Shown here: positions 4,798 through 9,524 of the stretch, piece after piece
Layout of the letters: every line of letters begins with the position of its first letter
Position numbering within the stretch: position 1 is the first letter of the stretch
Source of the DNA: Thermoanaerobacter sp.
Lineage (GTDB): Bacteria > Bacillota > Thermoanaerobacteria > Thermoanaerobacterales > Thermoanaerobacteraceae
NCBI GenBank assembly: GCA_014896455.1
Contig: JADBKJ010000028.1
Span: 1 to 64,000 of the forward strand
Length of the DNA: 64,000 bases
Direction: 5' to 3'
The notes under the pieces: model-generated
The model's database searches: none
What the model saw: the letters and a program-made list of their open reading frames with translations, nothing else
What the model was told of the DNA's origin: nothing
Translations under genes and position numbers: made by a program

Positions 4798-6309
<1,512 letters not shown>

Positions 6310-6316
6310 TCACCCT

Positions 6317-6790
6317 TTATTTGCGTATTTCTAATATTTTTAACTTTATAATTCCAGCAGGAACTTCAACAGAGACAACATCTCCTACTTTTTTCCCTAA
6401 AAGCGCTTTCCCTATTGGAGATTCGTCAGATATTTTGTTGTTCATAGGATCTGCTTCTGCTGAACCTACAATTGTATACTCTAGTTCTTCATTATAGGAT
6501 TCGTCATACACTTTTACAGTACAGCCAATGCTAACCTGGTCAAGTTTTATGTCTTCTTCGTCAATCACTTTTGCATTTTTAAGCATGGCTTCTAAGGTAG
6601 CTATTCTTCCTTCTATAAATGCTTGCTCGTTTTTTGCTTCGTCGTATTCTGAGTTTTCACTTAAATCTCCAAATGCTCTCGCTTGTTTTATCTTTTCTGC
6701 TACTTCAGCTCTTTTGACCGTCTTTAAATATTCTAATTCTTCTTCTAATTTTTTGAGTCCTTCATAAGTTAAAATTACAGGTTTGCTCAT
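6317..6790 (-). CDS. greA: Transcription elongation factor GreA
   Basis: [57 protein letters not shown]. Confidence 0.97.
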
Positions 6791-6870
6791 AAACGATTCT
6801 CCTTTTTATAAAAATTAAAAATTGTATTTTATTCATATGTAGCAATAATGAAATTTATGTTAATATTAAT

Positions 6871-6900
6871 ACACAAGCACTGCAAAAGCAGTGCTTGTGT
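6871..6900 (-). terminator. Strong hairpin terminator downstream of the 6954-9493 cluster
   Basis: acacaagcactgc-aaaa-gcagtgcttgtgt, perfect 13-bp arms. Confidence 0.75.
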
Positions 6901-6953
6901 AATTTTCCATGTGGATTATTATAAATCAGTTAACAAATAAAGTCAAGTCTAAA

Positions 6954-8042
6954 TTATGCAAATTTCCACTCTTGTAATCTCTTTTTAGCGTTTTTTCTCA
7001 CAGATTCTATCTTTTCCATTGTAACTTCTCGCTCGAAACTTCTAAATCCCGCCAATTTAAACCCATGCTTTTTAGCAAGTTTTGATATCTCATCCACTTG
7101 TTCTACAGTCAAATCTCGCCCTAAAGAATAATTCTCAATTCGTCCTTCCATAGCAAGAATCATTGTCTCTGCCATACAGGCATAACTTGTTTTAGGTGGA
7201 AAACCAAAGTTAAAGTGGAAGTCTACATCGCCAGGCACTTCTACTACTCCACCTTCTATGACTAAAACATCATCTCTTTTATCCGCAACTTCCTTTGACA
7301 CATCTCTCGGTCTTGCTACATCGCATACAACAGCCCCTGGTTTTAGATATTCGGGTTTTATAACCGTATCTACTGCACTTGTAACAGTGATTATTATATC
7401 CGCGTCTTCTAAGGCTTCTTTTACATCTGAAGTGATATGGGCAGACATCCCCGTTTTTGTTAAAAGATAGTCTCTAAAGTTTTGCAATTTTTCTTTATTT
7501 CGTGCTACAAGTGTCATGTATTTAGCATCTCGGGACAAAATTTCTGCACAGACCTTGCCTATTGAGCCTGTCGCTCCTATCACAACGACATGAGAATCTC
7601 TTACATCTTTACCCATCATCTCTGCGGCTTTTACTGCTCCTTCTATTGCTGTAGCGACTGTATAACTGTTGCCAGTAGTTACAGCAATGTTTGAATTTTT
7701 AGCAATTGTTATTCCTGCATCTCCTACAACAGAAGTCATAGCCCCCAAGCCGACAACCTTTGCACCTAAATTTTCTACAATTTTTACTGCTTTTATTATT
7801 TTATTTAATACATAATCTTCTGGTAACTTCAGCATTTGCTCGGAGGTTAAAGGAACCGCCACAAACCAACCTTCTGTTTCAGCATATTCGCTTCTAACCC
7901 CTGTTATTTCGGAAACTTTTATAGGAGGGATAAGTCTTGTAAAACCTTCCACAACTCTTTTGGGGAACTTCTCCATTATTTTAAACTTGCGGCTTACATC
8001 TTCGTACTCTATAGGATGTATTATAAAACCAAATTTATGCAT
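6954..8042 (-). CDS. Rossmann-fold dehydrogenase related to long-chain acyl-[ACP] reductase (AAR)
   Basis: MHKFGFIIHP N-terminus; TTGNSYTVATAIEGAVKA; VIGATGSIGKVCAEILSRDAKYMTLVARNKEKL; YACMAETMILAMEGRIENYSLGRDLTVEQV..AKKHGF parallel to cyanobacterial AAR. Confidence 0.65.
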   Translation of the reverse strand: MHKFGFIIHPIEYEDVSRKFKIMEKFPKRVVEGFTRLIPPIKVSEITGVRSEYAETEGWFVAVPLTSEQMLKLPEDYVLNKIIKAVKIVENLGAKVVGLGAMTSVVGDAGITIAKNSNIAVTTGNSYTVATAIEGAVKAAEMMGKDVRDSHVVVIGATGSIGKVCAEILSRDAKYMTLVARNKEKLQNFRDYLLTKTGMSAHITSDVKEALEDADIIITVTSAVDTVIKPEYLKPGAVVCDVARPRDVSKEVADKRDDVLVIEGGVVEVPGDVDFHFNFGFPPKTSYACMAETMILAMEGRIENYSLGRDLTVEQVDEISKLAKKHGFKLAGFRSFEREVTMEKIESVRKNAKKRLQEWKFA

Positions 8043-8055
8043 ATTTATTACCTCC

Positions 8056-8964
8056 CTATTTTTGTAAATATTCTATTCTGGGTTCAAAACCTATTTTATC
8101 CAAAAGTTCATCGTAATCTTGTGTCGTCATTTCTTCTTGTTTTTTACCTGCTATTGCCACAAGAACTCCTTCCATCACATTTGTCCCAAAAGACCTGCCA
8201 TTTATGTTGGGGGTAGTAGTAATTAATATTTTCACCCCTTTCTCTTTCATCATTTCCACATCTTCCTGTGTAACTGTGTTAGTCACAATTATCTTCCCAT
8301 CGAGCCTTTCAGGCATGTATTTTTTGATAAAAAGAAAATCACCTGCAATTATGTCTGCTTCTTTATAAAATCTTTCATATTTTTTACTATCTATTTTCAA
8401 TTGCTTGTCTCCTGTGGGATAAATCATTTCAAAGGGAAGACGTACCACAATCGGCACAATGATAAAAGAAAGAAAATACACAACCTTTAGGGAATGCAAT
8501 GGTATAGGAAGATTCAAAGCAAACATCAAATCCCCTATAATAAGTCGTGCACCCTCTTCATAAAAAGCTTGTGCCATGCCAAACCTGTCCATAACACTTG
8601 TCATAAGCACTTTCTTCTCTTTTATATTAACTATTCCTTTTTTCTGTATGTATTTTATTACTTTTCTTTCAAGTGTATTTTTAAGCCCCGAGCCGTCCAC
8701 AATTGGCGTAATCTTTGCTGCATTTTTTAACGGCAATGCATCTTTTATGATATATCTTTTATTGCCTGCTGAAAGGTATAAATCTATTCCTCCCATTCCA
8801 AAAGCGTCTACTTTTCCATCCAACTCTTTAATAAGTTCTATGGCTTTTTTCAAGTCCCCATCAGTTCCTATTCTTTCTATTATAAATTTTTCTCCTAAAA
8901 TCTCTACCTCTGCTGTTTTATTTCTTGTGGAAGCACCTATGCTTATACTTACAACCCTCTTCAT
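8056..8964 (-). CDS. Conserved protein of unknown function, partner of the AAR-like gene
   Basis: Full-length 302-aa ORF 13 bp upstream of the AAR-like gene; no motif I can name confidently. Confidence 0.6.
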   Translation of the reverse strand: MKRVVSISIGASTRNKTAEVEILGEKFIIERIGTDGDLKKAIELIKELDGKVDAFGMGGIDLYLSAGNKRYIIKDALPLKNAAKITPIVDGSGLKNTLERKVIKYIQKKGIVNIKEKKVLMTSVMDRFGMAQAFYEEGARLIIGDLMFALNLPIPLHSLKVVYFLSFIIVPIVVRLPFEMIYPTGDKQLKIDSKKYERFYKEADIIAGDFLFIKKYMPERLDGKIIVTNTVTQEDVEMMKEKGVKILITTTPNINGRSFGTNVMEGVLVAIAGKKQEEMTTQDYDELLDKIGFEPRIEYLQK

Positions 8965-8968
8965 ATTT

Positions 8969-9493
8969 TCACCCTTTCAATGAATTCAATATCTCTTTTA
9001 CTACTTCAGGGTCAACATATACATCTTCTGTCAAAGGAGAATGTCCAATATTTATAGTTATGATATCTCTGTCAAATATAGCTTCTACCAATTGGCTCCT
9101 TTTGTCTGAACCTAAAAATATTATCACGTCGTGAGATTGAATTTTAGCAATCAAGTCCATTACCATGTTAAAAAGCTCCACACCACTCATGTTTTCAGCC
9201 AAGCTCAATCTCTCTTTCTCAGACAAAAGAAGTGTAAAATTAACTCCCCACTCTCTTAAAATCTCCTCCAGTTCCTCTTTATTTTTTATAGGAAAACCTA
9301 CTACAGCAATGTTTCCTCCTTTTCTAACCTCACCTAAACTTTCTAGTCTCGAGACAAAACTTCTGTCAACTTTAAAGCGAGAGGCAACCTCTTGCTGTGA
9401 AAGACCATTTTGTCTCATTTCAATTATTTTATCTATTATGCCGTGCAATTTCTCTAAATTTATAGTCTTATCACCAATTTTAATAAATTTCAT
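8969..9493 (-). CDS. HTH (XRE-like) transcriptional regulator; start re-assigned to internal ATG
   Basis: MRQNGLSQQEVASRFKVDRSFVSRLESLGEVRKGG helix-turn-helix; ATG at 9491-9493 preceded by GGAGG. Confidence 0.7.
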   Translation of the reverse strand: MKFIKIGDKTINLEKLHGIIDKIIEMRQNGLSQQEVASRFKVDRSFVSRLESLGEVRKGGNIAVVGFPIKNKEELEEILREWGVNFTLLLSEKERLSLAENMSGVELFNMVMDLIAKIQSHDVIIFLGSDKRSQLVEAIFDRDIITINIGHSPLTEDVYVDPEVVKEILNSLKG

Positions 9494-9495
9494 TT

Positions 9496-9524
9496 GCACA
9501 ACCTCCAGTGTGCACATTTTGTGC
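9496..9524. promoter_or_regulatory. Candidate autoregulatory operator of the HTH regulator
   Basis: gcaca(9496-9500)...tgtgc(9509-9513) and gcaca-ttt-tgtgc (9512-9524) overlapping inverted half-sites in the leader. Confidence 0.4.

Follow-up and report, generated by a model that had tools for sequence, protein, structure and literature searches.

A predicted standalone thioester reductase of the AAR/PigE/TamH family and its likely, separately encoded aminotransferase partner in Thermoanaerobacter and other Bacillota

The stretch of DNA analysed here (64,000 nucleotides; the window) encodes a protein, P1, which by its sequence and modeled fold is a member of the AAR/PigE/TamH family of thioester reductases. 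Comparative genomics indicates that a separate class III aminotransferase (AT) turns the aldehyde made by P1 into an amine, in a widespread amine-making pathway. We consider it probable that P1 and this AT constitute a two-gene counterpart of PigE and TamH, which is the best explanation of the observations taken as a whole. The initial annotation, which proposed an enzyme resembling acyl-ACP reductase (AAR) in a self-contained three-gene unit, was right as to the kind of enzyme; the partner and the unit differ. The organism is a Thermoanaerobacter, and its P2, encoded next to P1, is 97–98% identical to those of Thermoanaerobacter sp. A7A and T. wiegelii. The relevant features of the window are:

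8969–9517, minus strand: P3, 182 aa; the cassette starts with this gene, which probably encodes an HTH regulator
8056–8964, minus strand: P2, 302 aa, conserved protein without family assignment
6954–8042, minus strand: P1, 362 aa, predicted thioester reductase of the AAR/PigE-N/TamH-TR family
7557–7577, minus strand: GATGSIG dinucleotide loop of P1 (residues 156–162), equivalent to AAR 162-GATGDIG-168
7176–7178, minus strand: codon of Cys289, predicted nucleophile in YACMAET, HMMER-aligned with AAR Cys294 and the PigE Cys
6918–6946, minus strand: sigma-A-type promoter TTGACT-17-TATAAT for greA-lysS, 11/12 consensus positions
6870–6901, minus strand: perfect 14-bp hairpin AGCACTGC..GCAGTGCT, probably belonging to the greA leader
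6317–6790, downstream of P1: greA, named from sequence and conserved context
4798–6297, downstream of P1: lysS, named from sequence and conserved context

The best NCBIfam match of P1 is PigE (prodigiosin; 245 bits, 1.7e-72, residues 3–355), followed by AAR (TIGR04058; 123.9 bits, 8.5e-36). A profile built from 45 P1 proteins retrieves PigE (4ppm, 5e-56) and AAR (6jzq, 8e-44) from the PDB, after which there is a large drop; the near full-length likeness to these two proteins is far beyond chance. Foldseek searches with the AlphaFold (AF2) model of P1 (pLDDT 90) match AAR at E ~1e-22, with TM 0.75–0.80 and 26–29% identity, the carmabin TAD domain coming next (2e-18) and all other structures scoring 4e-8 or weaker with TM <0.45; the model therefore matches the AAR fold, far ahead of quinate/shikimate dehydrogenases. 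The motifs first quoted for P1 are all present in its sequence, and the proposal that the cysteine of ACMAE corresponds to the AAR nucleophile is borne out: Cys289 aligns with the cysteine of AAR FACFAEA (Cys294), which is a serine in the C294S entry 6jzz. Cys289 is kept in 44 of the 45 aligned P1 sequences, and Gly156, Gly159, and Gly162 of the loop in all 45. AAR itself forms an acyl-Cys294 intermediate and binds NADPH at GATGDIG (PMC7089970). A tree containing P1, AAR, and PigE has long branches and does not settle how AAR and PigE stand to P1. To our knowledge no activity has been described for any standalone P1, and a literature search found nothing on standalone P1 or on P2.

A thioester-to-aldehyde reductase role is thus supported by sequence, fold, cysteine alignment, and family scores; the narrower identification with the cyanobacterial enzyme was not upheld. 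P1 is not an AAR equivalog: it falls far below the curated cut-off of TIGR04058 (123.9 versus 449.7 bits) and resembles the reductase domain of PigE more closely, no aldehyde-deformylating oxygenase was found in its relatives (PF11266; 0/31 related genomes, Synechococcus elongatus control positive), and its partner is apparently an aminotransferase. Alkane synthesis was rejected as a function, given the lack of this oxygenase in the 31 genomes. P1 also lies under the curated cut-off for PigE (245 versus 850 bits), corresponding to the reductase part alone with no transaminase domain on the chain, and its likeness to glutamyl-tRNA reductase is weak and local (53.7 bits versus a cut-off of 209.55).

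The likely partner of P1 is the separate class III AT, counterpart of the other half of PigE; the two are coupled by fusions, by adjacent gene pairs, by the best match of the AT being PigE, and by co-occurrence. In some Bacillota a P1-like reductase domain is fused behind a class III AT in proteins of 840–976 aa. The reductase domains of these fusions form one clade (support 99/98), all six fused domains examined keep the Cys, and at two loci (L084 and L121) the fusion lies directly behind P2, the normal place of P1. Adjacent AT and P1 genes, ~20–40 bases apart, with P1 intact and in the order seen in the fusions, occur in Alkaliphilus peptidifermentans (G432), Anaerovirgula multivorans (G433), and one MAG (G431). 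The AT of a second Thermoanaerobacter genome (G001) has PigE as its best NCBIfam match (521 bits, with putrescine aminotransferase at 455 bits), and the AT of the window's own genome (on another contig, C20; G000:C20:73342-74751) is 93% identical to it; through this identity, a cognate PigE-like transaminase is present in the genome. A separate AT of 460–490 aa is usual in genomes with standalone P1, in most of them several kb from P1 or unlinked (~8 kb in T. wiegelii). No ACP or acyl-ACP synthetase gene was noticed adjoining P1.

Several arrangements around the AT gene were recorded in addition. At one locus (L154), which likewise speaks for the coupling of P1 with AT, the order is P3-P2-AT-SRPBCC protein-P1-greA-lysS, and a protein of 144–149 aa adjoins the AT in three genomes (L154:3150-3599, L159:5343-5786, L160:5703-6137). 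The copy at L154 has a match to SRPBCC-type Polyketide_cyc (lipid transport), and a role of this protein as carrier for a hydrophobic intermediate is possible. In Thermoanaerobacteraceae (L156:10206-13182, L157, L158, L168) the AT gene is followed by genes for a Thioredoxin_9 protein and a B12-dependent ribonucleotide reductase.

Across a sample of 399 genomes of the phylum, P2 was found in 291, P1 (standalone or fused) in 241, and AT (E<=1e-85) in 215. At thresholds of E<1e-80 for standalone P1 and E<1e-140 for long AT, 117 genomes have both, 72 P1 only, 9 AT only, and 201 neither (Fisher p ~1e-38, the 399 genomes not being independent); standalone P1 is thus carried by 117 of the 126 genomes with long AT. 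With one genome per family and the fusion families removed by hand, the corresponding counts are 30, 7, 4, and 17 (p=5e-6). These tables were made from genome lists transcribed from search outputs. P1 and P2 occur together in 236 of the 399 genomes, P1 only in 5, P2 only in 55, and neither in 103, and not one of the 55 P2-only genomes contains the AT. In three Caloramator-type genomes the AT occurs with no P1 match at E<=1e-10, and one further genome (G042) combines the AT with a P1 in which the Cys is changed to Ser. Sporulation was considered as the underlying function and rejected: the SpoIVA marker is present in 335/399 genomes, including genomes with P2 but without P1 and AT, and therefore does not explain the P1/AT pattern.

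In the pathway that we propose, P1 would reduce thioesters with NAD(P)H. As in the homologous AAR, the acyl group of acyl-ACP or acyl-CoA would first be taken over by Cys289, which is predicted to sit where the acyl pocket meets the dinucleotide cleft; hydride transfer from NAD(P)H at GATGSIG would then free the aldehyde, and the separate PLP-dependent class III AT on contig C20 would convert it to a primary amine, as in fused PigE/TamH. By analogy with TamH, P1 most likely acts on a fatty acyl-ACP of medium or long chain length. PtTamH converts C12-ACP via the C12 aldehyde to the C12 amine with NADH and L-Glu and refuses C12-CoA (PMC9594044). PigE in lysate takes a thioester to the transaminated product, and purified PigE had no reductase activity (PMC8341465).

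The reductive direction is an inference that has to be weighed against its reverse, in which the AT would deaminate an amine to the aldehyde and P1 would make acyl-CoA, as a CoA-acylating aldehyde dehydrogenase of amine catabolism. Many of these bacteria ferment amino acids, and the AT is also near putrescine aminotransferase, at 455 bits in Thermoanaerobacter and as the best NCBIfam match of the L154 AT. However, the experimentally studied relatives AAR, PigE, and TamH act reductively, and no typical amine-degradation genes were noticed around the AT-P1 pairs; we therefore regard an oxidative P1 as unlikely. The aldehydes might alternatively feed another sink, such as fatty alcohol, ether lipids, or plasmalogens, the association with AT then reflecting shared ancestry and not function. 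Ether lipids and plasmalogens do occur in anaerobes, and 27 genomes carry standalone P1 without an AT match at E<=1e-85. Fusion, adjacent pairs, and co-occurrence nonetheless all point to the AT, which makes a different sink rather improbable.

At ten loci (L057, L083, L088, L098, L118, L123, L131, L137, L145, and L147) a diverged, Cys-less P1-like protein occupies the position of P1 beside P2, and most of these copies also lack the glycine loop. Their retention in several lineages could be taken to mean that P1 serves P2 chiefly as a structural or regulatory partner, with catalysis dispensable. Against this, the Cys and the glycine loop are near-invariant in the main P1 clade, and several genomes with decayed copies either carry an intact P1 or a fusion at another place or lack the AT as well: those of L123 and L057 carry an AT-reductase fusion, that of L145 has an intact P1 adjoining AT elsewhere, and those of L098, L118, L131, L137, and L147 have no AT above the general class III level. 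A dispensable catalytic role is accordingly very unlikely, and the pattern fits loss of the catalytic Cys once the pathway had moved or vanished. The P1 of a further cassette (L047:1303-2835, G037) is 511 aa long; it carries a long insertion and has lost the Cys motif (now PYVVEPM).

That P1 is a shikimate/quinate or amino-acid dehydrogenase is extremely improbable: the PF01488 Shikimate_DH match (53.5 bits, residues 140–256) and the weak ornithine-cyclodeaminase matches span mainly the common Rossmann part, whereas P1 fits near full length to AAR and PigE only, Cys289 is conserved and aligned with the AAR cysteine, the aroE equivalog-domain score is 24.8 bits against a cut-off of 200.2, and quinate dehydrogenase ranks 40th in the fold search (8e-6 versus 1e-22 for AAR). 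A shikimate/quinate dehydrogenase identity was rejected on these family scores and the fold search, and the shikimate-type placement with a misaligned Cys, named at the outset as what would speak against a reductase, was not found.

The three minus-strand ORFs were confirmed and follow one another in the order P3-P2-P1 with intergenic gaps of 4 and 13 bases. They do not amount to a self-contained three-gene unit, since 55 of the 291 genomes with P2 have no P1 and the metabolic partner best supported for P1 is encoded elsewhere. P3-P2-P1 is really part of a conserved neighborhood, dusB-P3-P2-P1-greA-lysS, in which P2 persists also without P1. This gene order recurs in many families, and the location is therefore old and mostly vertically kept. 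In Thermoanaerobacter a putative spore-germination gene pair, named from sequence, lies upstream of the cassette instead. P3, which is conserved upstream of P2 in many loci, probably regulates the cassette; its assignment as an HTH regulator is plausible, at a score below the Pfam cut-off (HTH_3, 19.7 versus 23 bits). At two loci (L171, from Carboxydothermus islandicus, G437; and L122) P3 and P1 lie together between dusB and greA with P2 elsewhere in the genome, and P2 is therefore separable from P3-P1.

P2 has no Pfam match, no NCBIfam match above cut-off, and no PDB sequence match. It is highly conserved, with ~55–60% identity between bacterial classes and 41 invariant columns among 64 sequences; Arg14, Arg31, Asp90, Lys95, Glu99, Arg127, Asp145, Asp209, Asn229, Arg257, and Asn262 are identical in 64/64. 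The best PDB match of its AF2 model (pLDDT 92.4) in Foldseek is AAR 6jzq (2.9e-6, TM 0.49–0.53), with others close behind in E-value, namely glutamate dehydrogenases, FolD, and other Rossmann and sugar-binding proteins, mostly at TM <0.45. Compared by eye, the order of strands and helices in the P2 model parallels that of P1 along most of the chain. There is no catalytic Cys and no glycine loop in the P2 model; on this reading DRFGMA and approximately the invariant Asn262, also placed by eye, would take the places of GATGSIG and Cys289, and P2 would be unable to carry out the chemistry of P1. Profile comparison of P2 with P1 by hhalign, with and without model-derived secondary structure, did not rise above reversed, rotated, and block-shuffled controls, and the case for homology is therefore a structural one; on the models, we lean towards P2 being homologous to the P1/AAR fold. 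P2 would then be an AAR-fold protein that lost its Cys and dinucleotide loop, and may serve ligand binding or delivery, or act as a non-redox enzyme on related acyl substrates. We offer only tentatively the wider proposal that anaerobic Bacillota have an ancestral, near-core split reductase-AT pathway from carrier-bound acyl groups to primary amines, with P2 as a new, Pfam-less AAR-fold family whose acyl substrates would be identical or related to those of the pathway.

Where P1 is missing, the genes around P2 (ribF, TruB, FecCD transporter, cation efflux, YkuD, and others) include no consistent partner that would point to its function. A second, diverged P2 paralogue (31% identity) is present in one genome (G040:C3:71354-72043; L050:5334-6215), and further genomes also have two P2 matches. 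In one Thermoanaerobacter genome (L075, 4934-5840; G007) P2 is broken by stops or frameshifts beside an intact, 97% identical P1; either pseudogene formation or faulty assembly could account for this, the genome having a contamination of 6%.

The "strong terminator" assigned to the end of the cassette did not hold up. The hairpin at 6870–6901 lacks a U-tract on the operon strand and is placed ~20 bases downstream of the 11/12 sigma-A-type promoter (6946–6918), before greA, and both elements recur in relatives; it is more likely a greA leader element than an operon terminator. Promoter-like sites as such are about as frequent in the region as expected (14 versus 12.4). A hairpin of the AGCACTG...CAGTGCT type is found upstream of greA in 17/61 loci (L041, L043, L048, L072–L077, L094, L098, L134, L138, and others), mostly 22–24 nt behind such a promoter. 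In these greA-lysS leaders of many Bacillota the AGCACTG...CAGTGCT stem is conserved in sequence and the inner part is variable. The hairpin, which has no Rfam match in the window, is possibly a regulatory element.

Fatty-amine chemistry of the PigE/TamH type is known from specialized pigment and alkaloid pathways. That P1 and AT are separate, co-inherited genes, present in roughly half of the sample or more, suggests a more general role in anaerobic thermophiles and clostridia, hidden by family-level annotation as shikimate dehydrogenase, putrescine aminotransferase, or no family. P1 and AT are also candidate heat-stable parts for producing amines from fatty acids, and P2, present in 73% of the sample and without a Pfam family, is a good target for structural and functional work. 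A literature search did not find a split reductase-AT amine pathway described for Bacillota.

Among known systems, the closest are PtTamH and PigE (tambjamine and prodigiosin), in which the reductase is fused to a class III transaminase. P1 is homologous to their reductases over nearly its full length with the Cys aligned, the other half of PigE is homologous to the Bacillota AT, and the aminotransferase-reductase order of TamH (PMC9594044) is that of the Bacillota fusions. In contrast to these systems, the organism studied here has the two activities as separate genes, no pigment gene cluster was noticed around P1 or AT, P1 is associated with P2 and P3, and it occurs in ~60% of the phylum sample, as if belonging to core metabolism. 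AAR (TIGR04058) shares with P1 the fold, the catalytic Cys, and the GATGxIG loop, but differs in the equivalog score and in the oxygenase that accompanies it, as described above. Transaminase-AAR fusions of Thermaerobacter, Thermincola, and Pseudomonas (PMC10829540) and KecF, proposed to act like PigE/TamH-type fusions (PMC6498172), have the same fusion architecture as the Bacillota fusions, three of them being from the same phylum. Transaminase activity was measured for the Thermaerobacter and Thermincola fusions, whose reductase domain was not assayed on thioesters (PMC10829540). P1 and AT are split, unlike these fusions, and the cited sections of both sources do not mention P2 or the two-gene form. 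Glutamyl-tRNA reductase with GSA aminomutase follows an analogous logic of acyl-Cys formation, NADPH reduction to the aldehyde, and hand-over to a class III PLP enzyme, although the substrate there is an aminoacyl-tRNA. The chemistry is already known from PigE/TamH; what is new is its split, widely conserved form in Bacillota, together with P2.
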